Shown piece after piece: positions 5,176-29,836 of a stretch of 29,836 nt of DNA (its first letter is position 1; every line of letters starts with the position of its first letter). The stretch is taken from IMG/VR virus record IMGVR_UViG_3300009431_000096, positions 1 through 29,836 of that record. One strand, 5' to 3'. Made by a program: the position numbers and the translations under genes. The stretch is from a virus. Below the pieces are notes generated by a model that saw nothing but the letters and a program-made list of their open reading frames with translations, was not told where the DNA came from and made no database searches.

Positions 5176-5183
5176 CTCCGAAA

Positions 5184-5209
5184 AGGGTCCAGGGTCGCGC
5201 CTGGACCCT
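5184..5209 (-). terminator. Reverse-strand terminator for the inverted paralog gene
   Basis: GGGTCCAGG (5185-5193) pairs perfectly with CCTGGACCC (5200-5208) around a GTCGCG loop, with an extra A-T pair outside. Read on the minus strand, the hairpin is followed by TTTTC. It lies ten bases past the stop of the minus-strand gene at 5219-5566. On the plus strand it has no T run, so it is primarily a minus-strand terminator. Confidence 0.7.
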
Positions 5210-5218
5210 CCTTCGGTA

Positions 5219-5566: not shown

Positions 5567-5672
5567 AGTTTTCTCCACTTTTTTGCAATTTTTATTACCG
5601 AGGTGTACTTTAAGTGCTTGTATCCCATAATATAGCATCTAAATTGAAGAAACTACTATTGGAGAAGCGAAA

Positions 5673-6950: not shown

Positions 6951-6953
6951 AAA

Positions 6954-7367
6954 ATGGCTCTATATCCAGACACTTTGGTATGCGCAACTTCTGCGGACAT
7001 CAAAACAAATCAGTTGCAGATCGTCGTCCACGGTGAAGGAAAGACTACTGCATCATTCGCAACAGGTACAGCAGGTACAGTGCTTCCGGCAGGAACACCT
7101 CTAGTGTATGACGGCACAGACTACGAGAAGTTTACAGCGGCAGCATCTAGCGAGATGACAGCTATTGTATGGCCTAACGATGTTGTGCTCGACGATACAG
7201 ATAAAGCTACAGGCGTAGTCCTTCTTAAGGGTGAAGTTCGTAAGTTCTCTGAGATCAAGGCACTTGTTGCAACGGCAGATCAGGCAGCTCTTCTTGCGAG
7301 CTGTAAAGACAACGCGGCTAAGATCGGAATTCTTGTTCGCGGAATTTCTAACATTAACCAAGACTAA
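6954..7367 (+). CDS. Head decoration protein, lambda gpD-like
   Basis: The 137-residue protein follows an excellent AAGGAGG site. The sequence has the expected gpD pattern: a Gly/Thr-rich beta start with GTVLPAGTPLVYDGTDYEKF (residues 42-61), a central AIVWPNDVVLDDTDKATGVVLLKGEVR strand pair, and an Ala-rich helical end. gpD trimers bind the expanded shell at three-fold positions and stabilise it. Its place between protease/scaffold and major capsid gene is the lambda order. Family assignment is by pattern and position. Confidence 0.8.
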   Translation: MALYPDTLVCATSADIKTNQLQIVVHGEGKTTASFATGTAGTVLPAGTPLVYDGTDYEKFTAAASSEMTAIVWPNDVVLDDTDKATGVVLLKGEVRKFSEIKALVATADQAALLASCKDNAAKIGILVRGISNINQD

Positions 7368-7378
7368 GGAGGTAAAAA

Positions 7379-8458
7379 ATGGCTATCGATCCAATCGAAC
7401 TAGTTGACGACATCCGCGAGATGTCAGAAGTAATCAACGAACGTCTCGTACCTCGTAAACCACTTTCTCAGGTCCTAGGGGCCGGGGTTCGTGAGAAGAA
7501 CCTTACAAAAGAAGGTGTACAGGTAGAAACACTGGTAGGTGACTGGAAAATGGCTCCGTTCGTCAATAAAGACGGCGTAGCATCACCAATTACTCGTAAA
7601 AACTTCAATGCATACGTTATTGAGACTCCATGCATAAAAATCAAAGCACCCCTTACGGATTCTGATACTCTTCTTCAGCGTCGTGCAGGAAGCCTTGACT
7701 TTGCAAACGAGTCTGATGCAATGCGCCAAAACGCTCTAGAGCAGTTGGCAGAGGACATGGATGAAATGCTTGAGATGGTCGCCCTTCGTGAAGAGTGGCT
7801 ATGGTCTCAGTGGTTGACAGGAACTATTGCCTACGAAGATACAGATACTAACGTATCGTGGACTGTAGACACTAAGAAGCCTGCAGCTAATACTTTCACA
7901 GTTGGAACACTGTGGAGTCAGGAAGCAGCATCGATGGACGCGGATCTGTCCGCCGCATGTGACATCATTCAGAACACCCACCAAGGCCCTGCACCTAACA
8001 TCTGCCTATGTGGAGTAAACGCAGCACGTACTGTACGTAACCGCCTTGAAAAGGGATGGGCAACTGCAATGAAGACCGATTCAGGAATCCTGACGGGTAA
8101 CGCACAATTGATAGCTCAGTACAACGAGCTTGGAATGCGATACATCGGAATGATCCACGGATTCGAGTTCTGGGAAGTAAGCGGAACACTCACCGATGAT
8201 AAGGGAGTAGAAACTTCGATCATCCGTGACGACTATATCGAAATCTTCTCGAACGGACCACGTGCAGTTCGCGACCGTACTAAATACTACGGACGTAAAC
8301 GCGGAATCACAGGAACTCTCGACGGCACAGCCATCGGTAAAATGAGTTCACGTGCATGGGCTGACGACACTGCAGATGTATACTACCAAGAAGTTCAGAC
8401 TCGTCCGTTCTTCTGGGCCAAGCATCCTCAGTGGTACGTGTCGATGAAAGTAATCTAA
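7379..8458 (+). CDS. Major capsid protein, lambda gpE-like
   Basis: At 359 residues it has the length of the gpE family of HK97-fold capsid proteins. Matching features are the early stretch with APFVNKDGVASPITR (about residues 60-74), ETPCIKIKAPLTDSDTLLQR, an acidic LEQLAEDMDEMLEMVALREEW helix (residues 121-141 region, the spine helix) and a late GPRAVRDRTKYYGRKRGITG plus RPFFWAKHPQWYVSMKVI end. It uses AAGGAGG just before the start and lies directly after the decoration gene. Codons here are more regular (more CGT) than in the tail genes, as expected for a very highly expressed protein. Confidence 0.88.
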   Translation: MAIDPIELVDDIREMSEVINERLVPRKPLSQVLGAGVREKNLTKEGVQVETLVGDWKMAPFVNKDGVASPITRKNFNAYVIETPCIKIKAPLTDSDTLLQRRAGSLDFANESDAMRQNALEQLAEDMDEMLEMVALREEWLWSQWLTGTIAYEDTDTNVSWTVDTKKPAANTFTVGTLWSQEAASMDADLSAACDIIQNTHQGPAPNICLCGVNAARTVRNRLEKGWATAMKTDSGILTGNAQLIAQYNELGMRYIGMIHGFEFWEVSGTLTDDKGVETSIIRDDYIEIFSNGPRAVRDRTKYYGRKRGITGTLDGTAIGKMSSRAWADDTADVYYQEVQTRPFFWAKHPQWYVSMKVI

Positions 8459-8463
8459 TAACT

Positions 8464-8483
8464 GAGGGCTTCGGCCCTCTTTT
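8464..8483 (+). terminator. UUCG-loop terminator after the capsid gene
   Basis: GAGGGC (8464-8469) and GCCCTC (8474-8479) flank a TTCG tetraloop and are followed by TTTT. UUCG loops closed by C-G are exceptionally stable. It lies five bases past the capsid stop with no clear promoter following, so it probably acts as a partial terminator that keeps capsid message high relative to downstream genes. Confidence 0.85.
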
Positions 8484-8518
8484 ATAAAAACGAAGAGAAA
8501 ACAGAAAAGGTAAGAAAA

Positions 8519-8962
8519 ATGAGCAGCGAAAAACAAGTATACATTGTTGAGAATCCAGAGAACGACGGCAAGAAGCCGGGCGGATTCACGATGCGTAACA
8601 TGGGACCGGAAGACATCGTAGTACATCCGGGTGAGAAGATTCCAGCGGATTGGGTACACCCCCACACGTTGGAGACCTTGATGCGCGACGGACACATGGA
8701 GTATGTAGAAGAGGAGGTCAAAAAGCCTAAAAAGGCTAAGAAGAAGGCTTCTAAGAAATCTGCCAAAAAGCAGAAGGAAACTTTTACAGATGAAATGCGC
8801 CAGGAACACTGTATTTTTCCGGAGGTAACTCTTGAAGAACTATCAGACGACGAGATCAGCGAACTCTTAGCAGAGATTGCCGATAAGTCAGAAGTAGCGA
8901 TTCCTGAGCTCTCAACAAAAGAAGAAAAAATTGAATTCCTAAGTTCTGGAGTATCTGAATAA
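8519..8962 (+). CDS. Unknown small head-region protein with a lysine-rich linker
   Basis: This 147-residue protein has AAAGG upstream of its ATG. Three parts are visible: a folded N-terminal part (residues 1-62) with VVHPGEKIPADWVHPHTL, a linker (about 66-88) that is almost all Lys and Ala, and an acidic helical C-terminal part. Similar short proteins occur between capsid and connector genes in many siphophages, but I cannot give a name. The basic linker might bind DNA or the shell interior. It overlaps the next gene by one base (TAATG), indicating joint translation. Confidence 0.65.
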   Translation: MSSEKQVYIVENPENDGKKPGGFTMRNMGPEDIVVHPGEKIPADWVHPHTLETLMRDGHMEYVEEEVKKPKKAKKKASKKSAKKQKETFTDEMRQEHCIFPEVTLEELSDDEISELLAEIADKSEVAIPELSTKEEKIEFLSSGVSE

Positions 8963-9483
8963 TGGCAGTAGAGGCACTATTTAACGAAAGCTACATAGAA
9001 CTTCTTGAGCGTGTACGAATAGAGACAGCGACAGAAGACCAAACCGTTGCACTCGTGAATATGAGTGTCTCTGAAGTCAGAATCGGATTCTACAAAACAC
9101 TAGGGTCAGACAGAGTAGCTGAGATAATAAGTTATCCGCTCGTAGAAAATCCTTCAACAGATGAAGAGATACTCAGAGCGGATGCAGCAAATATCGAGGC
9201 ACTCTGGCTTACATATCTACTTATTCCGAGACTCCCCCAGTTATTTATGGCAGGGGGACACATGGTTAACCAGTTGTTTAACGAAGAGCCTCTTACAAGA
9301 GATGCAGAAGTGTCTCAGGAATTCCTTGACCGACTTAAAGAGCAGATAGACTCAGGCTTATCTGACTTGGTCGAAGATCCTGACGATTACCAGTCGCAGA
9401 CTATAAGAGCATCTTCAATAGGAGCTGACGAGCCATACCTTCTGAAAGATCAATACACAGCATTCGGAGTATTTGACCGATGA
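8962..9483 (+). CDS. Putative head-tail connector (adaptor) protein
   Basis: The 173-residue protein begins at the ATG that shares its A with the previous stop. It is mostly helical and acidic, with a repeated E-x-x-L-R-A-D-A pattern, a hydrophobic LIPRLPQLFMAG turn and a C-terminal DQYTAFGVFDR. Position between capsid and tail-completion/tube genes is where adaptor proteins that extend the portal ring are encoded. No decisive motif is seen, so the role is inferred from context. Confidence 0.45.
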   Translation: MAVEALFNESYIELLERVRIETATEDQTVALVNMSVSEVRIGFYKTLGSDRVAEIISYPLVENPSTDEEILRADAANIEALWLTYLLIPRLPQLFMAGGHMVNQLFNEEPLTRDAEVSQEFLDRLKEQIDSGLSDLVEDPDDYQSQTIRASSIGADEPYLLKDQYTAFGVFDR

Positions 9484-9905
9484 GTATAAAAGTAGCGATA
9501 CAGAAGAAGATAATAGAGCTCGTGGAGAGCGGGACATTCTATAAGGTGACTTATGAGAAACCTGATACGAATATTCCTGTTTTGGGAGATCCTGTAACAG
9601 GAGATGATCTTCCTAAGATCTGGGTCAACGAGACAAGTGCAAAACTAGATGACAGTTCTGCTTCAAGTAGTAGGGATCGCCAGTTTAATCTGATGTCTTG
9701 GAACTTTGAAGCTAGAATTATGTTCAGAGAGGAAGTAGATTGTAGTGAGTTCTTTACAAAAGAGCTTTCTAAGTTGTATATACAAGAGGATGGATACCTC
9801 ACTACAGTGGAGGCGGGAGGCTACAACGTGCAGCATCCAGTCACCGGAGGTAAACAAACAGGAACACATATATTATTGAACCTAACAGCTAACACCAGGA
9901 GGTAA
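9480..9905 (+). CDS. Putative tail completion/terminator protein
   Basis: The 141-residue protein overlaps the preceding gene by the ATGA junction and ends four bases before the tail tube gene. It starts with an amphipathic helix (IQKKIIELVES) and continues with beta strands (FYKVTYEKPDTNIP, FNLMSWNFEARIMFREEVD), ending GTHILLNLTANTRR. Small alpha/beta proteins immediately before the tube gene are usually tail terminators that cap the tube (gpU-like) or neck proteins. Assignment is by order and fold impression only. Confidence 0.45.
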   Translation: MSIKVAIQKKIIELVESGTFYKVTYEKPDTNIPVLGDPVTGDDLPKIWVNETSAKLDDSSASSSRDRQFNLMSWNFEARIMFREEVDCSEFFTKELSKLYIQEDGYLTTVEAGGYNVQHPVTGGKQTGTHILLNLTANTRR

Positions 9906-9908
9906 GCA

Positions 9909-10754
9909 ATGGCTATCAATAACAACGGAGTTGCCTCATCAAACGAGTACCTGCTAGGACGGGGATGCCTGTACCTTGCAGAACTTAACAGTGATGAAAC
10001 TCCACAATCGTACAAACAGGTAGGTAACGTACCTGAACTATCGGTTTCAGTGGATTCAGAACTGTACGAGCATTTCTCATCTAAGCAGGGACTTCGAGTT
10101 AAAGACCTGACAGTTGTGATCGAGCAGACAATGGACATGTCTTTCATTCTTGAGAATGTGAAAGATTTCGGAAATCTGAAATACTTCTTCTCTGGAGATG
10201 CATCTCAGTACACAAATCCTGCGGTTGGAGGGTTTACAGGAGCAGTTATTGCACAGGACGGTACCATTATCGCTAATGCTAACTACGCTCTCGTAGACAC
10301 TACAGGCGGTCCTGTATTCGAGATTGACAAGGCGAATCTCACAGTTGAGACTACTAACGCTACTCCAGTCACCCTTACAGAGGGTACAGACTATACTGTA
10401 GAAGAAGACACTGGTTTGATCTTCATCAAAGATACAGCGGTAGTGCAGACAGCCATCACCAACGGCGAAGGACTTACAGCAGACTATACAGCAGATGCAG
10501 ATGCTGGAGCAGTCACTAAAATGGAAGCTCAGACTCGCGCAACTACTACAGTCGCTCTACGTTTCATATCAATCGATGCGAAAGACGGCTCTAAGCAGGT
10601 ATACGAGTTCCACAAAGTCACAATCTCTGCGGATGGAGACTACAGCCTTATTTCAGATGAGGTTGCTCAAGCTCCGCTGGCAGGATCGGTGGAAAAGAGC
10701 GCGGCTTACGAAGGAACACTTACTATCTACGATCCAGTGGCTCGTACAGCATAG
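9909..10754 (+). CDS. Major tail tube protein
   Basis: The 281-residue, beta-rich protein (AGGAGG upstream) opens with a typical tube-protein start: YLLGRGCLYLAEL (residues 14-26), VGNVPELSVSVDSELYEHFSS (around 37-57) and GLRVKDLTVVIEQTMDMSF. The middle holds a Thr/Val-rich segment with a hairpin VTLTEGTDYTVEEDTGLIF, resembling an inserted Ig-like or loop domain. It is followed by a strong terminator and the G/GT chaperones, exactly as for lambda V. It polymerises into the tail tube around the tape measure. Confidence 0.85.
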   Translation: MAINNNGVASSNEYLLGRGCLYLAELNSDETPQSYKQVGNVPELSVSVDSELYEHFSSKQGLRVKDLTVVIEQTMDMSFILENVKDFGNLKYFFSGDASQYTNPAVGGFTGAVIAQDGTIIANANYALVDTTGGPVFEIDKANLTVETTNATPVTLTEGTDYTVEEDTGLIFIKDTAVVQTAITNGEGLTADYTADADAGAVTKMEAQTRATTTVALRFISIDAKDGSKQVYEFHKVTISADGDYSLISDEVAQAPLAGSVEKSAAYEGTLTIYDPVARTA

Positions 10755-10778
10755 TTACAGTTCTAAGCTTGAATATCA

Positions 10779-10817
10779 AAGAGCCACTGGTACAGTATCA
10801 GTGGCTTTTTTATTTTT
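10779..10817 (+). terminator. Terminator after the tail tube gene
   Basis: AGCCACTG (10782-10789) pairs with CAGTGGCT (10799-10806), extended by a G-U and two A-T pairs, followed by an almost unbroken T run to 10817. As no strong promoter is visible before the next gene at 10842, it is probably a partial terminator that sets high tube expression relative to the chaperones and tape measure. Confidence 0.85.
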
Positions 10818-10841
10818 ACGGAGAAAACAAAGGAGAAAACT

Positions 10842-11420
10842 ATGGAATTTTTAAAAAAGAGCAAAGTCACGGAGTACGAGGTCAACGGAATCGTAACGAG
10901 ATTTAAAGGAATCCCGTTGAAGACAATTTTCAAAATTCGCAATCTGGCCGAGGCTAACAAATCTATTTCCAAACTTCTGGCGCACTTCTTCACAGACAAG
11001 ACAAAAGATGCGGAAGTAATAAGCTCTCAAGAACTCGCCGATGCAGATAAAGCACTGTACAACACACACACACGAGTTGCAGCAATCGACACTCAACTGG
11101 CTACAATACGCCAGAGAGAGCTTGAATCAGGAATTGCCGGTATTCAGTCTTTAATCACATCTCCAGAGAGCCAAGAACTCTTTGCGGAGATTATATACTA
11201 TTCAGTCGCAGATCAGTGGAAAAATGATCAAGGAAAAATACTCAATCAGGAAGAAGCCATCGAATACATAAAGGGATTCAACGTCGCAGTGTCCATGGAA
11301 CTTCTAATAGGAGCGTTTAAAGCGTCTTCGGGAGTTGTGAAAGTTCTGGGAAAGCTGTTTCCCCAGATCCCCAAAAATATGGTAGACCTGGCGGAAGGAA
11401 AGATAAAGGATCTGGGTTAA
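10842..11420 (+). CDS. Tail assembly chaperone G
   Basis: The 192-residue zero-frame product has AAAGGAG seven bases before its ATG. It is helical, with a core of IPLKTIFKIRNLAEANKSI (residues 26-44) and a C-terminal VSMELLIGAFKASSGVVKVLG before the slip site. It lies between tube and tape measure, the invariant place for G-type chaperones. In lambda, G and the frameshift product GT coat the tape measure and recruit tube subunits, and are absent from the mature tail. Codons 169-171 contain the GGGAAAG slippery site. Confidence 0.85.
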   Translation: MEFLKKSKVTEYEVNGIVTRFKGIPLKTIFKIRNLAEANKSISKLLAHFFTDKTKDAEVISSQELADADKALYNTHTRVAAIDTQLATIRQRELESGIAGIQSLITSPESQELFAEIIYYSVADQWKNDQGKILNQEEAIEYIKGFNVAVSMELLIGAFKASSGVVKVLGKLFPQIPKNMVDLAEGKIKDLG

Positions 11421-11755
11421 AGAACCTCTCTCCTGAAGAGGAGAGGCAGTGGCTATGGACCATCATAGAGGATGCTATAACTATATGTGCTTCTTACGGA
11501 TATGATCCACAATGGCTTATAAAACTAGATTGCGAAAACTTCGCAGGGGTGTATAGTAGTGTTATGCGCGTTAAATCCCGTGACAGACTATGGGACCTAA
11601 ACGCAACTACCGTGGCTATGCATCCGGGAGGCAAGAAGGATAAAAACAGGAAAAACATTATCTCCGCGCTGGAGACATGGATACCTCTTGCAGAGTTGAA
11701 ACAGTCGATGGGAGATGCTAGCGGATTTAAGAATCTATTTAGTAAAGGCAGGTAG
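10842..11755 (+). CDS. Tail assembly chaperone GT, made by -1 frameshift
   Basis: Reading to AAG at 11352-11354 and slipping back one base continues without a stop to TAG at 11753-11755, giving about 304 residues (171 from G plus 133). The -1 frame is open from 11321 onward, so the slip site lies within the overlap with G. The T part holds SPEERQWLWTIIEDAI and YGYDPQWLIKLDCENFAG, and no ATG with a ribosome site precedes it; the only start-like codon (GTG at 11549) lies mid-domain. This matches the lambda G/GT system in which a few percent of ribosomes shift. The T domain binds tube subunits in lambda. Confidence 0.85.
11348..11354 (+). promoter_or_regulatory. -1 ribosomal frameshift slippery heptamer GGGAAAG
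   Basis: In the G reading frame the codons are CTG GGA AAG, giving G-GGA-AAG, the same heptamer used by lambda G/GT. It lies 64 bases before the G stop codon, inside the window where the -1 frame is open. Confidence 0.9.
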
Positions 11756-11757
11756 AA

Positions 11758-14700
11758 ATGACAACAGAAGGCGGAATAGATTACGATATCTCAATATCCG
11801 GAAATTTTGATACTAAAATTTCCGGATTTATAGCGTCTGTAAAAGAGCTTACAAAGGAAGTCAAGGGCCTAAGTAAAGGGACATCTGGATCAAGGGCATC
11901 GAGGAAAAATTCGGAGGCGCAAAAAGAGGCCGAAGCATCTAAGGAGACGTCCAAGAACCTTGAGACAGTAGAGAAGCAGGAAAAGGACATCCTGAAAATT
12001 CGCCAGACATCCACCAAGGAAACAGAAAAGCAGACAGCGGCTCAGAAATCTCAGGCCGCAGCAGTCAAGCAGGTAGAGAAGGCAGAGAAAAACATACTCA
12101 AACAAAAAGAGCTTGCCACCAAGCAGTCTAATATACAGGCACTAGCATCTGAAAAGAACGCAAGAGCAGCTGTACGTGTAAAAGTTGCAGAAGAGCAGGT
12201 AAGGCAGGCGAGGGAAGCAGGAATATCCAGCGCGAAAGAGATAGCTAGAGTAACCGGACTATCCGAAAGTGCCGTGAGGAATATCACAGGGGAGACCAAG
12301 AAGGCCACCAGCCAAACCAATAAATTACTATTGTCCTTTAAGCAAGTATTATTTACAGTTTTAAGATTTCAGATCGCCCGTAGAATATTTTCATTCATCA
12401 CAGAAAGTGTTAATGAGATGTCGCGATTTAGTGCTGAGATAGAAGGCGCTCAGATGTCTATGGCCTCAATCGTGGCAACGGTAGGAGAGGTAAGAACAGC
12501 GACAGGGGAACTGGCCGGAGGCGTCACAGCGTTCAACGCAGCACTGAGAATATCAGACGAAGTAATAAACCAACTGAGACTAGATGCAGCAAGAACAGAA
12601 GCAACTTTCGAGGGACTTATACAGGCGTACCAATTCGCGGTAGGGCCTGGATTGGAAGCAGGACTCAACCTTGACCAGATCAGACAAGCCACATTGAACC
12701 TTACTAGAGCCGCTACGCAAATGGGAGTTCCAGTAAGAGGACTAAATGAAGAGATCAGATCTATTCTACAGGGAACCATCAAAATACAAAACACTCGACT
12801 AGGAGTACTCTTCAACAATGAGGAGATTGCAAAAGCGAAAGAAGCAGGGAATTTATTTCAGCTACTTACAGACAGGCTAGGGGTATATAGCGAGACATCC
12901 GACCAGGTAGCAGATACATTCAATGTCCTTGCATCTAACATAAAGGATGCGACCAGCGTACTTCTGGCATCAGGGGCCGTGGAATATTTCGAGAGCCTTA
13001 AGCAACTGCTCAGAGATGTAAGAGGGGAATTGGTAGAGGAACGTGACGGAAAAGATGTACTGAGCGAGGACGCTCTTGAGATAGTTGAGAACATGTCGGA
13101 CGGACTACAGGATATAGTCAAAGCATTCAGTGACATAGTAAAGAATGAGAGCAACCTAGAGGCGTTGAAGGGGATATCCGAAGCAATAGGGGCAGCACTA
13201 TCAGCAGCCGGAGCTTCCATAGGAATAATATTTGAAATAGCCCTAGGAGTACTAGAAGACTTGTCCGGTATAGCGGAGGCGGTGGCGGAGGTGTTCGGGT
13301 CAATAGCCACAAGGGTAAACGGTATGGGCTCAGGCTTTAAAAGGGTTCTAACTTCGGCTATCTCGCTAGCTATAGTATCTAAGGCTTTATTGAGTACGTA
13401 TGTAGCCATCAGAGGAGCGTTACTACTCACAAGTAAGATAACCACTTTCATCACAGGCAAACAGAAGCTATCCGTCCTACTGGAGGCCCGTAGAAAAATC
13501 CTTGCAGATACCACGAACGCATCACTTGCAACACAATTAGGACTACTAACCGCCATAGCAGCCAAGTCGGCTCTTATCACAGGAGGACTAACCCTTGTAT
13601 TGGGAGCTTTAACGCTTTTCCTTGCAGACTTCATAACAGGATCAGATGAGGCGGTAGATAATCTGGGGGACCTGCAGGAAGAAGCAGAGAAGACGGCTAA
13701 GGCTGCGGAAGACTTAAAATCTAGCTTTGAACAGCTTCCTGTGAACATTTCAGCAGCCACTGAACTATCTAAGGAACTACAGAAGACACTGGAAAACGTA
13801 TCTAAGCAGATAGAGAAATCTCAAGCACAATTGAACGTAGCAGCGTCTGTAAGAGAGCTGTCAGGAGAAGCCCGTAAATATTCCAAGATAATAGCAGAGG
13901 GACAGGAAGAGGCTCGTAGAGGCTTAGAAGTAGATCAAAGAAAGATAAGACTGCTAGAACAGCAGATAGCCGGAGAGAAACAGCTCTTAGATTTCGACAC
14001 TCAGGCAGTGAACGAGAGAACAGCCAGACTAGTAGAGATACGCGACCTCATAGACCAGATAGACAAGAAAAGAAAGACAGGGAACGTAGACGAAGAAAGA
14101 AGAAACGAGCTAGTCAGAGAGTATAAGAGAATAGAGGAAGACATATCAACCCTTGTATCAGAAACTTCGGACGAGAACATCAGGGGAGCCAGAGAGTCAG
14201 TAAGGCAAGCACAGAGGGACTATCTGTTTTGGAAACGTAAAAGACTGGAGAGCGAAGAATCTCTTGTAGTATCCGAAAAGGAAGAGGTAGCTCTAGGTAA
14301 TTTAGAGAGCGCAGAGGAAAACCTAACCAACCTTATAGTGGAAAGGCGAAATCTGTCCGCAAAAATAGCAGCGGATGAGGAGGTTATTGCGGAACTCAAA
14401 AGACAAACATCAGAAGCAGAAGCAGCCATATTAAAGAGAACTCTTCTAAGAGTACGGGCAGAGAGGGCTAAAGAGGATAGCTTCAAAAGACAATTGGGAA
14501 TTCAGCGAGAACAGGAATCTATAATAGACGATTTCCTAGAACTGGAGCTGGAAAGACAGAGGACAATAGAAGGTGCCATCACAGCCGAGACCAACCTGCT
14601 GCAGCAGCGCATAGCAGCCAGACAACGAGAAGCGGAAATAGTCGGAGCTCAAAATGAGGCAGATCTAAATGCACTCAAAAACCAGCTAAAGGTCATAAAC

Positions 14701-16494
14701 GCGACCATAGATCGTAGAAACAGAGAGGGAGGACAGGAAGACCTTCTGGAACTATTTAAAGCTCGAAACTTTCTTGAACGCGAAATAGATAGCTTAAGAG
14801 ATAAGCAGGCAAGACAGGGAGCAGCTCTTGCATTGGAAATAGACAAATCTATCCAGAAGCAGGAAGAGTTCAATGAAAAAGTTCGAGAGCAATCAGGCAT
14901 CCGCGAAGACAATGCGGCGGTGCAGGGGCGTAAGACTTCTTTAGACTTAGCCAATAGAGAGCAGGAAATAGAGAGAATCAAACTACAAACCTCTCTGATT
15001 AACGCTCAAAGTAAAACTAAAGAGATAGCGTTGCAAAAACAACTTGTAACAGAACAGGAACGTCAGGTACAAGCTATCCAGGCTCAAGCGGCATTCGATA
15101 TAAAAAGACTGACTAAGCTTCGGGATACGAAGACCGAAGAAGAGGATATTCTGGAGATAAATAAAGAAATAGCTGAGGTAAATAAACAACTCCCTAGCCA
15201 AATAGGACTGGCTACGGCCAAGTTGGAGCAACAAAGAGCCAAGCTCAGAGAACTCCTTGGAGAATCTCAAGAATCTATAACGGGGGCTGTAGAGGCAGGG
15301 TTTAGAGAGTTCGCACTGGAAGCTCCCGGACTGGCAGATATAATAAGCAGTACAGTTAAGAAAGGCCTGAACGGAGTAGCAGATACTTTCGGAAGCCAAT
15401 TTAGTGCACTTATAGATCCTAGAAAGAATCCGGATTGGGAGAATGCATTTGCGGATCTATTTTACGGACTCGCTGGAGATTTCGCCTCAGAGCTGGCTAA
15501 ACAACTACTAGCATCTCAGATCTCAGGAATGCTGGGAGGACCTGCAGGAGATTCATCCCTAAGCACAGTGGTTAAAGGACTCACTACAGCTATGGGCGTA
15601 AATACGGTAGCAACTCAGACAGGTACGGCAGCAACTCAGGTTCAAACAATTGCTACACAAGCAGATACCGCAGCCAAGTCTACCGGAGCGGGAGCAGAAG
15701 CGGCTACAGGGGTATTAGGAGCCGGGACAGACTTAGCAGGAGGCGTAGTAGAAGGAGTAGGAAACGTAGCCATAGTAGGACTATTAACTACCATAGTGGC
15801 GGAGATAGCGGTACTTGGAGCACTCGTGGCACTGTCTGCAGGCGCAACACTGGCAAATACTGCAATAATGATAGGAAACCTCGCATTACTTGGGGCACTT
15901 TTAGCAGTAAACGTAGCAAACCTCGCAGCAAACCTTGCAGCTCTGCCTCTATTATCCACTATAGCAATATTTACCGTACTCGATGCTGTAGTCCCATTCG
16001 CCAAAGGTGGAATGGTGAAGCCTTTCGCTAAGGGAGGCAATGTACAGGGATTTGCAGGAGGGGGGTCAACTGCAGGACTGAGAACTTTTCAAAAGGCAAA
16101 CAGCATACCTAAATCGGATACGGTTCCGGCAATGCTGACACCGGGAGAGTTTGTACTAGTCCCTGATGCGGTTAAGAAATACGGCGCTGGATTCCTATCA
16201 GCATTAAATAAAGGAATAATAGACCCTTCTGCAGTCCTAGGAATGCCTGCAGCAGCGATAGCTACAGGATCAGGAACAGGAATAAAAGCTTTTGCCGATG
16301 GAGGAATGGTGTCGGAATCTACTACATCTTCTGCTAATGCGTCAAGAGGAGCAGGAACAGTAATTCGTCCGGTACTGCTTGCAGACAACACTACAATGCA
16401 ACAATTAACTTCCGGGGGCCGAGAAACATTTGAAAAAGGGGTGAATGGCACTAATATTACAGGAGACCCTAATAGATCTAAAGGATGGAACTAA
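11758..16494 (+). CDS. Tail tape measure protein
   Basis: At 1578 residues this is the largest gene and sets tail length; the usual rule of about 1.5 angstroms per residue would give a tail of roughly 230-240 nm. Residues 1-150 are charged coiled coil. Residues 152-178 look like a helix-turn-helix (EIARVTGLSESAVRN). A TP901-type tape measure core follows (about 220-420, with RLDAARTEATFEGL and GPGLEAGLNLDQIRQATLNL). Hydrophobic stretches occur near 610-635 and 1336-1415, and a long coiled coil spans about 660-1180. The C-terminus carries GGMVKPFAKGG and MLTPGEFVLVPDAVKKYG, typical of the family. Hydrophobic segments may insert in the host membrane during DNA ejection. Confidence 0.93.
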   Translation: MTTEGGIDYDISISGNFDTKISGFIASVKELTKEVKGLSKGTSGSRASRKNSEAQKEAEASKETSKNLETVEKQEKDILKIRQTSTKETEKQTAAQKSQAAAVKQVEKAEKNILKQKELATKQSNIQALASEKNARAAVRVKVAEEQVRQAREAGISSAKEIARVTGLSESAVRNITGETKKATSQTNKLLLSFKQVLFTVLRFQIARRIFSFITESVNEMSRFSAEIEGAQMSMASIVATVGEVRTATGELAGGVTAFNAALRISDEVINQLRLDAARTEATFEGLIQAYQFAVGPGLEAGLNLDQIRQATLNLTRAATQMGVPVRGLNEEIRSILQGTIKIQNTRLGVLFNNEEIAKAKEAGNLFQLLTDRLGVYSETSDQVADTFNVLASNIKDATSVLLASGAVEYFESLKQLLRDVRGELVEERDGKDVLSEDALEIVENMSDGLQDIVKAFSDIVKNESNLEALKGISEAIGAALSAAGASIGIIFEIALGVLEDLSGIAEAVAEVFGSIATRVNGMGSGFKRVLTSAISLAIVSKALLSTYVAIRGALLLTSKITTFITGKQKLSVLLEARRKILADTTNASLATQLGLLTAIAAKSALITGGLTLVLGALTLFLADFITGSDEAVDNLGDLQEEAEKTAKAAEDLKSSFEQLPVNISAATELSKELQKTLENVSKQIEKSQAQLNVAASVRELSGEARKYSKIIAEGQEEARRGLEVDQRKIRLLEQQIAGEKQLLDFDTQAVNERTARLVEIRDLIDQIDKKRKTGNVDEERRNELVREYKRIEEDISTLVSETSDENIRGARESVRQAQRDYLFWKRKRLESEESLVVSEKEEVALGNLESAEENLTNLIVERRNLSAKIAADEEVIAELKRQTSEAEAAILKRTLLRVRAERAKEDSFKRQLGIQREQESIIDDFLELELERQRTIEGAITAETNLLQQRIAARQREAEIVGAQNEADLNALKNQLKVINATIDRRNREGGQEDLLELFKARNFLEREIDSLRDKQARQGAALALEIDKSIQKQEEFNEKVREQSGIREDNAAVQGRKTSLDLANREQEIERIKLQTSLINAQSKTKEIALQKQLVTEQERQVQAIQAQAAFDIKRLTKLRDTKTEEEDILEINKEIAEVNKQLPSQIGLATAKLEQQRAKLRELLGESQESITGAVEAGFREFALEAPGLADIISSTVKKGLNGVADTFGSQFSALIDPRKNPDWENAFADLFYGLAGDFASELAKQLLASQISGMLGGPAGDSSLSTVVKGLTTAMGVNTVATQTGTAATQVQTIATQADTAAKSTGAGAEAATGVLGAGTDLAGGVVEGVGNVAIVGLLTTIVAEIAVLGALVALSAGATLANTAIMIGNLALLGALLAVNVANLAANLAALPLLSTIAIFTVLDAVVPFAKGGMVKPFAKGGNVQGFAGGGSTAGLRTFQKANSIPKSDTVPAMLTPGEFVLVPDAVKKYGAGFLSALNKGIIDPSAVLGMPAAAIATGSGTGIKAFADGGMVSESTTSSANASRGAGTVIRPVLLADNTTMQQLTSGGRETFEKGVNGTNITGDPNRSKGWN

Positions 16495-16495
16495 C

Positions 16496-17680
16496 ATGTC
16501 ATGGATTAAAGGAACAGCTACAGATTATCGTGAGGCACTGGAGAAGCTTCACGACTTCGCTACTATAACAACGAAGGCCAGTACATCGACTCCAGATGCA
16601 GGAAATACTGGAGACGGTAACATGGTGGGTGTATCAGCCACTCCATCCTCTGTAATTGAGAATTTTACTGTAACATGCACTTCTGCAGGTCCAGATGCTA
16701 CGTTTTCAGTGACCGGATCAGTATCTGGAGCACTGGCAGATGCGACAAGTAATTTACTTTACTCAGAGGCAGAGATATCTTTTATAGTATTGGACGGGAC
16801 CGTTGACTTTACCATAGGCGACGAGTTCACATTCTCTGTAGCTACAAAAACAGCAGACTGGACAGCAGAGAGATACGACAACACGCCCGGTAGTGAGTAT
16901 GAGCTGATCCTTAAGGGGATAGGGTATTCAGGACTGGAAGAGATATATACAGGATTTCAAACATACGAATCGGGGACCGACTACGGATGGAGAATTAACG
17001 GATTTACAGGATACAATCCAGGAGTAGAGTTTCTTAATCAGCCCGGTGCAGTCTCAGGAAATTCTTCTATATGGGATCATCACTTCATGCCTACTGTAGA
17101 TGTAGGGATTACATACTGGTTCTTCGTAAGTCCTCAGAGGATTATGGGGATTGTATTATCCGGAGCGGTATACACTTCATTCCACTCAGGATGGATTAAC
17201 TCGTATGCATCCCCGTCTCAATGGAATTACCCAATGATGGTAGGCAGTTGCGCATACAACATATTGCCGTACACCTCCACTGAGGATGGACTAAGAGCTT
17301 TCTGGAATACAACAGATGATGATAGATCTATAACGATGTCTATACTAGACAGTACTGCATGGAGGCCCACCAATCAGGACTATGGGATTATTGAGGGGTG
17401 TGTCAGGCTGTGGCCGCACCAGGCCGCTAGGGTAGAATCGTTCAAAGCGCAGCCTAATGGAGATCTCCCCAGCTTCAACGTTATAGTATCGATGTACTCC
17501 AATGGAGCATTCTCCGGGGTGTATGGAGAGATAGAGGGCGTTAAGTCGATATCTAACTTATCAGGCTCAGTAACACCCGAGGATATAATAACCTCAGGAG
17601 ACCTCAAAGCATCTATAGTAGTTCAGAACTGCTTTAGGGGAGATGAGCTAATAGCATTTACACTACAAGGAGATAACTAA
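16496..17680 (+). CDS. Tail tip/distal tail structural protein, first of two tandem paralogs
   Basis: I chose the ATG at 16496, one base after the tape measure stop, with GGA seven bases upstream; an in-frame ATG at 16445 would overlap the tape measure by 50 bases. The 394-residue protein begins MSWIKGTATDYREALEKLHDF, a common opening for this class. A beta domain at about 30-125 (ENFTVTCTSAGPDATFSVTG, then GDEFTFSV) seems inserted relative to the next gene's product. The shared core has NGFTGYNPGVEFLNQPG. It is probably a component of the distal tail; partner and exact position are unknown. Confidence 0.6.
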   Translation: MSWIKGTATDYREALEKLHDFATITTKASTSTPDAGNTGDGNMVGVSATPSSVIENFTVTCTSAGPDATFSVTGSVSGALADATSNLLYSEAEISFIVLDGTVDFTIGDEFTFSVATKTADWTAERYDNTPGSEYELILKGIGYSGLEEIYTGFQTYESGTDYGWRINGFTGYNPGVEFLNQPGAVSGNSSIWDHHFMPTVDVGITYWFFVSPQRIMGIVLSGAVYTSFHSGWINSYASPSQWNYPMMVGSCAYNILPYTSTEDGLRAFWNTTDDDRSITMSILDSTAWRPTNQDYGIIEGCVRLWPHQAARVESFKAQPNGDLPSFNVIVSMYSNGAFSGVYGEIEGVKSISNLSGSVTPEDIITSGDLKASIVVQNCFRGDELIAFTLQGDN

Positions 17681-18549
17681 TGGCATACCAGACAGGAACA
17701 TACCCAACACCCTCCGGACTTCTGAGCATCCTTAGCACCTTTGCTCAGGCAAACGGATGGACTCTTAATGACTACTCTATAGACGGAGACGGATACCGCC
17801 TCCACATCCAAAAAGGATCTCTGTATTTTAATTTCCGATCGTACGATACAGGAGGAGGTCATCCGAGGATTCATGTGAATGGGTCTACAGGATACAGTGC
17901 AGGTGACTCCGCTATGAATCAACCTGGTTCCATTGCAGGATCAAACGTAGCAGGAGGGATAACCAAAGTAAGCACATCTACGGCTTCTTACCACATGTTT
18001 ATACACGGAGATAGTATCACAGTATTTGCTGAAGGCACAGATAGATGGAAGCAGATGTCAGTGGGAGCCACATCTCTAGGGTACCCGTTCTATGCTTCGG
18101 GGACTACTTTTAGTGACTATCCCACTAGAAGCGGATATTTTCTTAAACATTCGGTATCAGGAAATCTAGACGACTATGCACATAGCGTGTATATAAACGG
18201 TACATGGACAGACGGGGCATCACCTGACGGTATATTCAATCCATGCACAGATTTCACAGCAGCTAACTACTCGAATTCTAGGTACATGTGTGAACCGTTA
18301 ATAACAATGTCTAAGAGTCAGCTGAGAGGTAATACCCTATTAATCCCTACCCATATGAGTATGACCGACACCTCTGATAATAAGGACGTTTACATAGGAG
18401 ATATACCGGGACTATACATACTGGACGCCACCAATTTTGTGGACGAAGACGAGTTAACGTACGGTGCAGATACCTACGTCATATCGAAACAGGCACCAGA
18501 CGCAACTCAAGCAGAGGCGTTCCTAGGAGTAGCTTGCTTAAAGGCTTAG
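17680..18549 (+). CDS. Tail tip structural protein, second tandem paralog
   Basis: The 289-residue product shares with its neighbour the N-terminal pattern TGT-x-x-T-x-x-x-LL-x-x-L-x-x-FA, the core NGSTGYSAGDSAMNQPG, and the C-terminal GDIPGLYIL (GEIEGVKSI in the neighbour). It lacks the neighbour's 95-residue beta insert. The start overlaps the previous stop as TAATG. Tandem paralogs here suggest a hetero-oligomeric ring or collar at the tail tip; no enzyme motif is seen. Confidence 0.6.
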   Translation: MAYQTGTYPTPSGLLSILSTFAQANGWTLNDYSIDGDGYRLHIQKGSLYFNFRSYDTGGGHPRIHVNGSTGYSAGDSAMNQPGSIAGSNVAGGITKVSTSTASYHMFIHGDSITVFAEGTDRWKQMSVGATSLGYPFYASGTTFSDYPTRSGYFLKHSVSGNLDDYAHSVYINGTWTDGASPDGIFNPCTDFTAANYSNSRYMCEPLITMSKSQLRGNTLLIPTHMSMTDTSDNKDVYIGDIPGLYILDATNFVDEDELTYGADTYVISKQAPDATQAEAFLGVACLKA

Positions 18550-24519: not shown

Positions 24520-25950
24520 ATGAAGGCACAACACATAAATACATCAGGTGAATCTAGCAAAGATCCCAAAGGTACAAGAGCAGGGGTGTATTCTGCGCCT
24601 TCCTATGATCTTTTTAACGGAGCGACCCAGAACATCCTACAGGGGATAAATCAGGCAGAGCCTCCTGAAAGTAATCAGGGGAACAGCACAGGAATCAACA
24701 GGAACAACTACCAAGTAATTCCTCAACCCTTTTCATTCTGTAAAACAATTGCATTGAAGGATATAAGTACCCACCACGCAGCCTGTATCCAATCCAAGAA
24801 ATACTCTACCGTAGGATTAGGATTCTATGGAGAAGATGAGATCAGTGGCTCAGATACTACGATATCCGATTTAGAGAGCGAGATAGCTCAAGCTCAGAAA
24901 AATACTACGGTGAGAGATGTTGTAAGCTTACTTACAGGAAACCAGAAGGTCAATTCTAAAGTAGATGATTTACTGGACCCTCTTACATATTTCGGTTTCC
25001 AAAACGAACTCATGGACATGACTGAAGACTTCATGGACGTAGGTACTGGATATCTTGAAGTAGCACGAGACTCCGAAGAGAATATAACAGGAATACGCCA
25101 TGTACCCGTAGCTGACTTGAGGCCGGTTATTCAAGGCCCTAATCTGTTCTACCTATACAAGAATCCTAACGGCACAGATCGCTATTTTGCTATGTACGGC
25201 CAGAAGGATTGGCTAATGGCGAACTACCCAGGAGGAGGTACAGGCCAGATTACAAGGGAAGAGGTCTCAGAGATCATTCCTTTCTTGATGCCTTCGAACA
25301 GGGTTAAATTTTACGGATATCCGGACTGGCTATCAGCAGTTGTTGACATTGATCTAACCGCCATGTCCAAGCAATATAAGGCAGACTTCTACTCTAATCG
25401 TGGAGTGTTGGATTTCATGGTAAGTGTTACAGGAACGTCTATGGACGATAAACAGTGGAGTACTCTGGAGGGGATTGTGAAAGGGTCTGTGGGAGCAGGC
25501 AGGAACTTCAAGTCCGGAGTTCTTAACGTCTCTAATGAGAATGCTAAGGTACAAGTAGACAAGCTTGCGATGGATATGAATACTGAAGAGCAGTTCGCGA
25601 AAGACAATGAGGTTCTTTCTCAAAACATAGTATCAGCTCACCGTGTTCCGCCTCTTTTGGCGAACATCCTTATACCGGGAAAACTTGGAGCAAGTAATGA
25701 GTTTGTAAATGCTTTAATAGGCTATCAGCTTCTAGTGATCGGTCCCTATCAGCAAATCATCCAGAGCCAGCTAGGAAGGACTCTGGGGGATCAAGAACAC
25801 AACGGCGGACTTGATCTATCAGCAGACAGCTTTAGATTAAGAACACTCACTAGTCAGATTAATATAACAGGACTAGATGCAGTTAGCCGGTCAAGGTCGG
25901 AAGCAGTTACGGAGGAAGACAGAGACTTCAGCGAGGGAGTTCTCGAATAG
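24520..25950 (+). CDS. Portal protein, HK97/PBSX-like
   Basis: The 476-residue protein has AGGAGG overlapping the preceding stop. Portal signatures include DISTHHAACIQSKKYSTVGLG (about 82-102), GTGYLEVARDSEENITGI (about 175-192), the clip/stem run VKFYGYPDWLSAVVDIDLT and SVTGTSMDDKQWSTLE, and the tunnel-loop region SAHRVPPLLANI. Twelve copies would form the DNA channel on which terminase docks. The length and motifs fit the phage portal family. Its position after the tail tip genes, about 19 kb from terL, is unusual, as portal normally follows terminase. Confidence 0.88.
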   Translation: MKAQHINTSGESSKDPKGTRAGVYSAPSYDLFNGATQNILQGINQAEPPESNQGNSTGINRNNYQVIPQPFSFCKTIALKDISTHHAACIQSKKYSTVGLGFYGEDEISGSDTTISDLESEIAQAQKNTTVRDVVSLLTGNQKVNSKVDDLLDPLTYFGFQNELMDMTEDFMDVGTGYLEVARDSEENITGIRHVPVADLRPVIQGPNLFYLYKNPNGTDRYFAMYGQKDWLMANYPGGGTGQITREEVSEIIPFLMPSNRVKFYGYPDWLSAVVDIDLTAMSKQYKADFYSNRGVLDFMVSVTGTSMDDKQWSTLEGIVKGSVGAGRNFKSGVLNVSNENAKVQVDKLAMDMNTEEQFAKDNEVLSQNIVSAHRVPPLLANILIPGKLGASNEFVNALIGYQLLVIGPYQQIIQSQLGRTLGDQEHNGGLDLSADSFRLRTLTSQINITGLDAVSRSRSEAVTEEDRDFSEGVLE

Positions 25951-26220: not shown

Positions 26221-26762
26221 TGAATCCTCGTAGACCGTTTCTACCACAATTCACGCCGTCCGCTCTTCGGGCGGCTTTAAACTACTGCAATACTGCCACG
26301 AACATCCCTAGCGACGATATAAGACTATCTATGAATCCGATAGAAGATGGACCCCTGCGAGGCAGGTTGAATGTCCCGCTCTATTGGGCTAAGTGGTACC
26401 ACGACGGAAGACGCGCCATAAGCCTGCCGAATAGTAGAGCTAAGGGCCCTATGATCTACTATAAGAATCCTCTGAACGATCCGAGGCTAGGGGGTTATGG
26501 GCCTTTTCGGTATCCCGTGACAGAGAAGACTAGAAGGAGGCTGACCTCGAAAGAGATAAGCAGAGACAGAAAGGCAGGTAAGATAGTTGTAACTTATAAG
26601 GTAGGAAAAACGGAAGGGAACCCCTTCTTTTCGGATACAGGGGGTATGCAGGGATTTGACAGGGAGCTCGATAAACTGGCTCAAAAAGAAACCGACAGCT
26701 ACGTTAGGGCTAAACTCGCAGGTGCCGGTATGTTAGATAAAAAGATTAAAGTAACTATTTAA
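26220..26762 (+). CDS. Unknown protein, possibly a neck/tail-completion factor of the HK97 gp10 type
   Basis: This basic 180-residue protein is the last + strand gene and overlaps the convergent lipase gene by 8 bases. Residues 54-68 read PLYWAKWYHDGRRAI, reminiscent of the Y-A-x-x-V-x-x-G core of gp10-like neck proteins, and NPFFSDTGGMQGFDREL (138-154 region) resembles their PF-x-x-P-A end. The match is loose. It could equally be an unrelated DNA-associated protein, given its Arg and Lys content. Confidence 0.5.
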   Translation: MNPRRPFLPQFTPSALRAALNYCNTATNIPSDDIRLSMNPIEDGPLRGRLNVPLYWAKWYHDGRRAISLPNSRAKGPMIYYKNPLNDPRLGGYGPFRYPVTEKTRRRLTSKEISRDRKAGKIVVTYKVGKTEGNPFFSDTGGMQGFDRELDKLAQKETDSYVRAKLAGAGMLDKKIKVTI

Positions 26763-27369
26763 GATTCAAGTTACGGGTCAGGTCTACGTAATTTGATATA
26801 CTGTGAGCAGACGCTGCAAATACTTTACAGTTCCATACTTTCTTTATATATTTCTTGGGTTTCGTATACCCAAAGAAAGGAACCCACGTCACTCGATCCA
26901 TTCCGTGTTCAACAAGAAGGAGCTTACCTCCTGTATCTGTAACAAGGTTCTGACAGAACTCTTTATCTCCTACCCTAGGAGATCCGAACGTGATGCAGGA
27001 ACAATCGCCATCATACATTGTTGCAAGGATCTGAGCCACGGCTCCTCCGAGACTGTGACCGGTAAATACTACAGGAACCTCCGTCTTAGCCAACTTGGAC
27101 ACAATCTGAGGAAAAATGCTCTCGCAACACTGTTTGAATCCTGAGTGGATGCCCCCTTCCGGAGTACTGGACTGAGTCCTCTTCAAGTCCTGTTTAACAT
27201 CCTTCCATGAACTGGTTCCTCTTACGGCCACTATAGTCTGTTTAGAGAAGTGCTCTATATATACCTCGGTATCAGTCTCCGTGTTTTTAAGGGAGTACTT
27301 TCTATAAGCATCCCTGGAGGCCTCCGCGCACCTCCTTACGGTCAGCGGAGTTATGTCTACGATACTCAT
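26755..27369 (-). CDS. Class 3 lipase-like alpha/beta hydrolase
   Basis: The 204-residue protein has the full class 3 lipase pattern: TIVAVRGTSSWKDVKQDL (oxyanion region, 45-62), GGIHSGFKQC (72-81), the nucleophile elbow FTGHSLGGAVAQ with Ser106, ITFGSPRVGDKEF (126-138), a likely acid Asp158 in HGMDRVTWVP, and His189 in AHSISNYVDL. The catalytic triad is therefore complete. No signal peptide is seen, so it would act in the cytoplasm or be freed at lysis. Its start overlaps the lipoprotein stop by ATGA (27366-27369). It may damage host membrane lipids during release, but it could also act on an unknown ester. Confidence 0.88.
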   Translation of the reverse strand: MSIVDITPLTVRRCAEASRDAYRKYSLKNTETDTEVYIEHFSKQTIVAVRGTSSWKDVKQDLKRTQSSTPEGGIHSGFKQCCESIFPQIVSKLAKTEVPVVFTGHSLGGAVAQILATMYDGDCSCITFGSPRVGDKEFCQNLVTDTGGKLLLVEHGMDRVTWVPFFGYTKPKKYIKKVWNCKVFAASAHSISNYVDLTRNLNLK

Positions 27370-27521
27370 TGTCCTACCTTGAATATACTTAGTTCTTTTC
27401 CTCCACTAAACTCATTAAACCCGTAATGTTCTTTAATGAGTTCTCCTGTCTCAGGGTCGTACTCTTTGTGTACACAACATCCAGACAGAAGTAGCAGAGA
27501 GAGTAGTGTTAGATATTTCAT
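27366..27521 (-). CDS. Small lipoprotein, o-spanin (Rz1)-like
   Basis: I chose the ATG at 27521 because it forms an ATGA overlap with the upstream gene's stop and opens a clean lipoprotein signal: MKYLTLLSLLLLSGC, lipobox L-S-G-C with Cys15. A longer in-frame start at 27557 would bury the signal. The mature peptide of about 37 residues is short and polar. A small outer-membrane lipoprotein encoded directly after a small single-span membrane protein resembles Rz/Rz1 spanin pairs, though proline richness typical of Rz1 is missing. The role is inferred from topology and order. Confidence 0.7.
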   Translation of the reverse strand: MKYLTLLSLLLLSGCCVHKEYDPETGELIKEHYGFNEFSGGKELSIFKVGQ

Positions 27522-27745
27522 AGCTCGACTGGCTCCTGATAATCTGCACTTATCCATTTTGCATGAAAAACTGACTTAGTAAGTGGCATAGCCCGTTGTG
27601 AATCGTTAAACTCTTTACGTAGTGTTTTGATCTCTTCAATCCCCGGATTGATCATAAGACTCGCGACGGTAAATGTTCCTGCTGCCCCCATCCCGAACAT
27701 GGTTAATATTAGCGCTCCCAACGCTATAAGGTTTGATGTTTTCAT
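27518..27745 (-). CDS. Small single-span membrane protein, possible i-spanin or holin
   Basis: The ATG at 27745 is preferred over 27772 because AAAGGAG lies just upstream. The 75-residue product has a basic N-terminus, one membrane segment (about residues 5-30), a short charged helix (IEEIKTLRKEFNDSQRA) and a C-terminal tail with PLTKSVFHAKWIS. That tail is encoded by a perfect 40-base repeat shared with the next gene upstream. The stop overlaps the lipoprotein start as ATGA. Topology fits an inner-membrane spanin partner or a holin; no family match is claimed. Confidence 0.65.
   Translation of the reverse strand: MKTSNLIALGALILTMFGMGAAGTFTVASLMINPGIEEIKTLRKEFNDSQRAMPLTKSVFHAKWISADYQEPVEL
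27549..27588. repeat. 40-base perfect direct repeat, copy 1
   Basis: This 40-base stretch is identical to 27810-27849 and in the same orientation. Both copies are read in the same frame on the minus strand and encode PLTKSVFHAKWIS near the C-terminus of two different proteins. Confidence 0.95.
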
Positions 27746-27775
27746 TCTCTTCTCCTTTTGTGGTTTTGGCACTTT

Positions 27776-28207
27776 TTACGGCTCCGTGGTTTGGTTTATG
27801 TATTTGTCGCTTATCCATTTTGCATGAAAAACTGACTTAGTAAGTGGCAGCCCGTGATCAGCGTTGAATTTCTTAACAGTCTCCCAAGGTGCTCCTTTCC
27901 AAGCACAATTGGGAGGGGTGTTCCTAACCACAGCACAACAACGAATAAGAACAGTTTCTCCGTCAAGAGATATTCGACTCACATTGCCTTCTGGAAAAGC
28001 ATCGCTGTATTTTTGGTCTTCGTTAAACATCTTATCATAATCAGCAACAGGAACTTCAACACCACCCAAGAAATTCTCAAGAGGTGTATCAGTTTCTAAA
28101 TGACCCTCAACAGAATGGTCGTCGTCACAAGTGCATTCAGATTTCAGCGATACTATTCTGCATTTATGCTCCACTTCTTCTATGTAATTCAGTTTTGAGC
28201 AATCCAT
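27776..28207 (-). CDS. Unknown 143-residue protein sharing a C-terminal tail with its neighbour
   Basis: AAAGGA lies eight bases before the ATG at 28207. The protein is acidic and Cys-containing (CRIVSLKSECTCDDDHS near residues 16-32, RCC at 89-91, C101). It has no signal peptide or membrane segment. The last 30 residues, KKFNADHGLPLTKSVFHAK and WISDKY, align with KEFNDSQRAMPLTKSVFHAK and WISADY in the membrane protein encoded downstream. I do not recognise the rest. Being in the same operon as lysis-like genes, it may regulate or bind the same partner through the shared tail. Confidence 0.65.
   Translation of the reverse strand: MDCSKLNYIEEVEHKCRIVSLKSECTCDDDHSVEGHLETDTPLENFLGGVEVPVADYDKMFNEDQKYSDAFPEGNVSRISLDGETVLIRCCAVVRNTPPNCAWKGAPWETVKKFNADHGLPLTKSVFHAKWISDKYINQTTEP
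27810..27849. repeat. 40-base perfect direct repeat, copy 2
   Basis: This is the second copy of the 27549-27588 repeat, 261 bases away. Flanking bases diverge at once on the 5' side of the plus strand; on the other side both copies run into a GCCCGT motif, offset by two bases. Confidence 0.95.
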
Positions 28208-28229
28208 TGTTTTGTCCTTTGTTTTATTA

Positions 28230-29117
28230 TTACGATGGTTGACCGATAGCCGCTAGAAACGCTGGAGAAAACTTGCTTTCGTCTACTAAAAGAATGTCCA
28301 AAGTAGACCATATATTCATACCTGTAGATGTACTTTCAACGCATATCCGAACATCTGTTTTAGCTGGAATTATATCAGGAAAGCTTCTAGTATCTTGATA
28401 TGTGGAAGAGCCATTAATGGACAGTGTTAGTTTTTTCTTTATCTTAAACACTTTGCCAAATCTTCGAGATTTATAACATAGATCTGCTAGTTCAGATGTT
28501 GTTGAGCCACCGCCCTCAAGCCCTGCACCAATCTCACCGCGATACAAAAAACCGACTTTACCGGCTGGTATAGTGTACAATGCCATGAGTGTTTGATTGT
28601 TCCCGTTTGTTATTATAGCTCTTCGTTCTGTTGTTGGTGGTACCCCGCCTACTGGTGCAGGATTTATACCTGCATAAACATTACCAACTATATCAACATT
28701 TCCTTCGTTTTCCATCCTGTAAACTCTCCACAATGCAGTGGGTAGTGTTACTGGTGTTTGACCTGTTAAGGTTACAGTTTGAACAACTTCAACTCCGTTT
28801 ATATCCAGTCCTGTGACAGAAACATCCATCGTGTCTGCAGTTGAACTAGATGACAAATAAGCAATAGGGTTAGTGCCGTCTAAATCATAAATATATTCTG
28901 TTTTATTTTCCCAAACATCAATAGGTGGATCGCCTGACCCAACATTACCTACCCAACCGAATTTATCGATAGCGCTTACACCATCTATTTCTCCTTGATT
29001 TATTGCAAGTTCATACAGTTTAGAAACGTTAACAAAATTATAAAAATCATCTTCTGTTTTTGTTGCTTCTATGTCCAGGTCGCTACCGAATGCATTTTTT
29101 ACTTTTATTGCTGTCAT
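28230..29117 (-). CDS. Beta-rich virion structural protein, possible head or tail fibre
   Basis: AGGAGA lies just before the ATG at 29117. The 295-residue protein has a helical start, then VSAIDKFGWVGNVGSGDPPIDVWENKTEYIY, TADTMDVSVTGLDINGVEVVQTVTLTGQTPVTLP and a late QTLMALYTIPAGKVGFLY. This succession (G-x-x-x-x-x-D-VW, then an x-V-x-G-L-D-x-x-x-x-E-x-x-x-T-V-T-L-x-G-x-x-P-V run, then M-A-x-Y-T-(V/I)-P-A-G-K) is one I associate with structural proteins of marine podo- and siphoviruses. It follows another fibre-like gene in the same operon. The exact particle location is unknown. Confidence 0.6.
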   Translation of the reverse strand: MTAIKVKNAFGSDLDIEATKTEDDFYNFVNVSKLYELAINQGEIDGVSAIDKFGWVGNVGSGDPPIDVWENKTEYIYDLDGTNPIAYLSSSSTADTMDVSVTGLDINGVEVVQTVTLTGQTPVTLPTALWRVYRMENEGNVDIVGNVYAGINPAPVGGVPPTTERRAIITNGNNQTLMALYTIPAGKVGFLYRGEIGAGLEGGGSTTSELADLCYKSRRFGKVFKIKKKLTLSINGSSTYQDTRSFPDIIPAKTDVRICVESTSTGMNIWSTLDILLVDESKFSPAFLAAIGQPS

Positions 29118-29125
29118 AATATCTC

Positions 29126-29836
29126 CTATGGTAGATACATTGAATTACTTGGTTTAGAAAAATCTAAGCTAGGGGGGGTAAAGTTAACAAAATCATAAAC
29201 TTTACCCAAATCATCTCCTGTTTGCGGTTCTTTGTATTTTACGAAGTTTTTAGTAAAGTTTTGGATTGATTTATCAGCAAAAGATGAATGCAACCCCTCT
29301 CTATCGACTGTTATAAGTTCCGTACTAAACGGTACTGGATCGTCACCAACAAATTCAAACTTAGTAGAGAACTGTTGTTCATGTTGCCGCAATTCTGGTG
29401 CAGCTGGATTTAACGCTTGAGTTTCCGATAGATCAGAAGCGTATTTTGTTGATCCTTCAATTTTGGCAACCCAGGTATACCCAGTGATAGTATCACCATC
29501 GGTTTTTACACTTTGTCCATCATCGGTGAGTCTTACACGCAGTGCGCTATTATCCGAATCTTTCTTCCATAGATCAAATCCGAACTGTTGATTGTAAGGA
29601 ACTTGATCATCAGCAGTTTGCCAGAAGTTGGTTAGGTCGCCCTTGACTGAGCCGTGTTTTCCGTTACCTGATACATCATATACAATAGATCCATTACATT
29701 CGCCGAAGTTGTAGTTGCATCCGTTGATTTCTGCATAATAAAGATCCATATCTACCCAAAACCCCGGTACCTGTGTACTTGAAGATAGAGCGCCTATATA
29801 AAGCATCGAACCACTTACGGAGATTGAACCACCAGT
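29126..29836 (-). CDS. C-terminal part of a fibre-like structural protein, cut by the window edge
   Basis: The reading frame stays open through the right end of the window: ten codons (TGGSISVSGS) precede the first Met at 29806, so that Met is probably not the true start. The visible 236 residues are beta-rich and include VYDVSGNGKHGSVKG, a pattern common in concanavalin/LamG-like carbohydrate-binding domains, and acidic, polar strands after it. No cleavage motif or chaperone domain is visible. It ends eight bases before the next gene's start. A receptor-binding fibre or spike tip is plausible. Confidence 0.6.
   Translation of the reverse strand, partial: TGGSISVSGSMLYIGALSSSTQVPGFWVDMDLYYAEINGCNYNFGECNGSIVYDVSGNGKHGSVKGDLTNFWQTADDQVPYNQQFGFDLWKKDSDNSALRVRLTDDGQSVKTDGDTITGYTWVAKIEGSTKYASDLSETQALNPAAPELRQHEQQFSTKFEFVGDDPVPFSTELITVDREGLHSSFADKSIQNFTKNFVKYKEPQTGDDLGKVYDFVNFTPPSLDFSKPSNSMYLP

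Follow-up and report, generated by a model that had tools for sequence, protein, structure and literature searches.

Two adjacent reverse-strand genes of an uncultured virus, encoding otherwise unrelated proteins, carry near their 3' ends a perfect 40-nt repeat that probably arose by the recent local copying of a short DNA patch from one gene onto its neighbor, and that probably serves no dedicated function. The window, by which we refer to the whole 29,836-base stretch of DNA analyzed here, is an uncultured virus record with tailed-phage genes, and a repeat finder run over its full length reports the two copies as 100% identical, with a spacing of 261 bp. The repeat and the genes around it are as follows (all on the minus strand):

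26755..27369, minus strand: class 3 lipase gene, at the downstream end of the same gene string (Lipase_3, E 1.8e-18)
27366..27521, minus strand: P0005 read from its second ATG, a 51-aa predicted lipoprotein (MKYLTLLSLLLLSGC...), o-spanin-like (translation; weak match to an Rz-like spanin PHROG)
27518..27745, minus strand: P0001, 75 aa (MKTSNLIALG...), one N-terminal hydrophobic segment, i-spanin-like (translation, hydropathy)
27549..27588, minus strand: repeat copy 1, 3' end of the P0001 small membrane-protein gene, encoding PLTKSVFHAKWI (exact 40-nt repeat and frame)
27776..28207, minus strand: P0002, 143 aa, soluble, with no visible signal peptide, an orphan (translation; no family, no homologue)
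27810..27849, minus strand: repeat copy 2, 3' end of the P0002 gene, encoding PLTKSVFHAKWI (exact 40-nt repeat and frame)

The repeat and the genes that carry it

Both copies are read in the same frame, in which the 40-mer specifies PLTKSVFHAKWI and supplies the first two positions of a following Ser codon, the peptide common to the two proteins being PLTKSVFHAKWIS. This peptide is sub-terminal, lying about 10 residues before the end of each protein, and is followed by ADYQEPVEL in P0001 and by DKYINQTTEP in P0002. The original prediction of a perfect repeat in two neighboring genes of otherwise unrelated sequence is thus borne out in both respects, since the copies match at 40 of 40 positions in one frame and the similarity between P0001 and P0002 is limited to a 26-residue alignment. 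A third copy of the 40-mer is absent from the window, even in degraded form (up to 16 mismatches in 40 allowed), and the repeat finder detects no other dispersed repeat of the same kind in it.

The hydrophobic segment of P0001 begins at residue 6 (maximum 19-residue Kyte-Doolittle mean of 1.84), and a structure model places a helix at residues 4-51 with low confidence; family scans, including PHROG, yield no match for this protein. Pfam and NCBIfam scans place P0002 in no family, none of its PHROG matches is credible, and its AlphaFold model (pLDDT 33) is uninformative. Downstream of P0001, the second-ATG start of P0005 shares 4 nt (ATGA) with the P0001 stop, and the P0005 lipobox was recognized by eye. 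A hydrophobic N-terminal segment followed by an overlapping lipoprotein gene, with a lipase downstream, is the layout of a two-component spanin. We do not claim membership, however, because the family matches are at noise level: P0005 aligns with phrog_6073 (Rz-like spanin) at E 0.034-0.051, and only over the signal-peptide part. The pair also departs from two-component spanins in its lack of a significant family match for either protein, in its short extracytoplasmic part and in having no endolysin recognized adjacent to it, and the shared 40-nt repeat is not in itself a spanin feature. Many spanin families are singletons (PMC6139136).

Relatives and comparable repeats in other viruses

Searches of IMG/VR, GenBank phages, PLSDB plasmids and GTDB representatives, whose reach extends to close relatives, brought up no relative of P0001, P0002 or their shared tail, and a PDB sequence search returned nothing. 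IMG/VR was searched by single-protein scans with P0001 and P0002, by a scan with a profile of the tail and by a degenerate DNA pattern, and GenBank phages by tblastn and blastn for the two proteins and the tail. Neighborhoods were also approached through profiles of P0003, a gene of the same minus-strand cluster, and of the portal protein, each of which led to 80 loci, the closest being L015 (51% over P0003) and L097/L098 (47% over the portal); no P0001- or P0002-like gene is present in the loci thus retrieved. The only sibling of the window, L003, is 99.5% identical to it and covers positions 49-12929, which do not include the repeat region. A literature search for C-terminal peptides common to several phage proteins, or for conversion in phages, yielded no usable paper.

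In order to assess how common such repeats are, we surveyed exact direct repeats of at least 30 bp against mechanically called ORFs of at least 40 aa in 175 records (2.2 Mb), which comprise the window, its sibling, lambda, a few complete phages and the 160 IMG/VR loci reached via P0003 and the portal, some of them near-duplicates. Fourteen repeats fall within one ORF, two are noncoding or unmatched, and six join two ORFs in one frame. Three of these last six are low-complexity arrays in L020, two belong to L023 and L024, and one is the pair in the window; no other exact repeat of this length joins two unrelated ORFs in frame, and the pattern is therefore rare among the 175 records. The L020 arrays lie in a small-gene cluster (13717-15582) built from AWSAA/ARSAA-type repeats, where the DNA repeats are exact over up to 85 bp.

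The closest parallel is provided by L024 (5221-6293) and L023 (1887-2959), two instances of the same locus type in which tandem genes, with 56% identity from end to end, share an exact 50-bp patch that is likely to be a gene-conversion tract. Short identical patches between neighboring phage genes do, therefore, arise. The window resembles these loci in its exact patch, its common frame, its adjacent same-strand genes and its diverged flanks, but it differs in that P0001 and P0002 align over only about 26 residues and have unrelated bodies. Diversity-generating retroelements likewise feature a pair of similar sequences located at the 3' ends of genes, but the copies in the window are identical, with no adenine-directed changes, and span only 40 bp; as no reverse transcriptase match was obtained among the window proteins scanned either, this candidate was rejected.

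Origin of the shared segment

Chance is excluded as the origin of the repeat (E about 8.5e-16 within the window, blastn-short). The copies show no difference at any site, synonymous sites included, and for 12 codons specifying the same amino acids, the probability that every codon choice coincides is about 8e-6 under the codon use of this phage. This figure points to copied DNA or to a DNA-level constraint instead of protein convergence, and excludes selection on the protein alone acting on old copies. It should be borne in mind that zero changes in 40 sites bound the divergence of the copies only at under about 7% (rule of three). Together with the sudden end of similarity at either border, the absence of synonymous differences supports the earlier suggestion of a recent duplication or gene conversion.

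The mechanism of copying, its direction and the tolerance of the patch we infer as follows. Forty nucleotides, and perhaps a few more upstream, would recently have been transferred as a copy from the 3' end of either gene to the adjacent one, through ectopic gene conversion or through template switching during replication across a distance of 261 bp, and the patch would have replaced or extended the C-terminus of the recipient. Homology that might have initiated conversion is not evident here, because the bodies of P0001 and P0002 are unrelated, unlike those of the L023/L024 paralogues. The patch may have survived by falling in its one stop-free frame at a protein end that tolerated the change: stop codons interrupt frames 0 and 1 of the 40-mer, and the open frame is the one used by both genes. 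Since the recipient escapes truncation only if the patch falls in that frame, a shared frame is expected even after harmless copying and constitutes weak evidence for a selected peptide. The likelier recipient would be P0001, with its i-spanin-like placement before the overlapping lipoprotein gene, given that i-spanin C-termini are variable and diverge at changes of architecture, and that a few random added residues have been argued not necessarily to affect i-spanin function (PMC6139136). If this reading is true, the window would offer a clean small example of a viral protein end replaced from an unrelated neighboring gene, and a possible route to C-terminal variation in small lysis-type proteins that does not depend on homology between their bodies. 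The repeat would then most likely be a curiosity of genome evolution, and would gain greater importance only if relatives showed the peptide to be kept by selection.

An unlikely alternative, which we rank second, is that both proteins possess a C-terminal module of greater age, about 26 residues long, the core of which was recently homogenized by gene conversion. The original prediction had argued for such a module from protein similarity extending beyond the identical bases. That extension is literally visible, with K-[EK]-F-N upstream of the core and Y three residues downstream in the same register of both proteins, and synonymous differences (AAA/AAG and TTT/TTC) occur in the stretch outside the 40-mer. 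The upstream protein similarity, however, is not significant (p = 0.07 against shuffles and 0.19 against random window segments), and the alignment needs a 1-residue gap. At the DNA level, similarity anchored on the repeat border reaches p = 0.012 to 0.03 upstream, mainly through ACGGGC at a 2-nt offset, and is nil downstream (score 0, p = 1). The upstream similarity fades within a few bases, leaving sharp borders of identity; it may mean that the copied tract exceeds 40 nt by a few bases, and it may leave room for a small older shared segment. An older module is thus unsupported by the protein comparison and weakly suggested, on one side, by the DNA.

It is rather improbable that the tail is an interaction peptide which the membrane protein borrowed from its soluble neighbor, both addressing one common partner, or else that the repeat pair acts as a switch by in-frame deletion. 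An exchange between the two copies would excise 261 bp without a frameshift and leave P0002 ending in the P0001 tail, a consequence of the repeat geometry and not evidence that the deletion occurs. Decidedly improbable, too, is a C-terminal tag for docking or targeting, its identity preserved because P0001 and P0002 share a binding partner, as had been proposed from the sequence. The common frame and an equal spacing to the stop of 22-23 residues, counting the core, would suit a tag, but the former is to be expected with a single open frame, and protein selection does not require the identity observed at all synonymous sites. Moreover, the P0001 C-terminus is predicted to lie outside the inner membrane, while P0002 bears no export signal, so a common partner seems unlikely. 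Tagged proteins were found nowhere else in the viral, phage, plasmid and GTDB sets searched, which hence provide no evidence of any function for the shared peptide. The amphipathicity of the core is ordinary (31st-58th percentile of helical moment), and an amphipathic docking helix was rejected on these grounds.

There is a very small chance that the 40-mer is a nucleotide-level element present twice, whether a recombination site, a protein-binding site or an RNA target. The perfect DNA identity, two small inverted repeats within the 40-mer (ACTTA-G-TAAGT and TTTT-GCATG-AAAA) and the spacing that permits an in-frame fusion would all be compatible with it. Neither strand, on the other hand, folds better than shuffled sequences (z 0.65 and 0.88), which led us to reject an RNA structure; segments of the 40-mer recur approximately no more than once in the rest of the window, scans for Rfam families and tRNAs return nothing, and no recombinase is present among the genes identified. 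With a single direct repeat pair as its material, the proposal of a recombination site or of RNA- or DNA-level selection finds no backing. A DnaA box at TTATCCA was also considered and rejected, as the match is at chance level. Finally, an assembly artefact is the least credible reading: the window is an uncultured virus record whose only sibling ends short of the repeat, but all four flanks differ and all remain within open reading frames, where an assembly duplication would normally be expected to leave longer identical flanks.

Other features of the viral window

The genes of the window include an intein-interrupted large terminase, a head protease, a capsid E-like major head protein, tail genes and a portal. 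The terminase is encoded by a 976-aa ORF (2185-5115, plus strand), residues about 554-961 of which match other phage terminases, and its intein consists of a splicing domain and a LAGLIDADG homing endonuclease. A 35-nt repeat (AGCATGTGAGTTTTTTCTC...) is present in four diverged copies within positions 1-127, at the start of the contig and upstream of the first gene. Two adjacent genes (16445-17680 and 17680-18549) both match phrog_687, a structural protein, and are therefore probably tandem paralogues. The portal gene (24520-25950) comes after the tail genes and is separated from the terminase by about 19 kb, which is an unusual order; its nearest counterparts, in L097/L098, stand beside replication genes.

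The minus-strand cluster at 27366-29836 looks as if it had been acquired separately, its third-position GC being mostly 0.25-0.40 versus 0.37-0.49 in the late genes sampled. Within this cluster, P0003 resembles cyanophage virion or fibre proteins, and the last ORF (29126-29836, minus strand), LamG-like by eye, is open to the contig edge and hence represents the C-terminal part of a longer protein.
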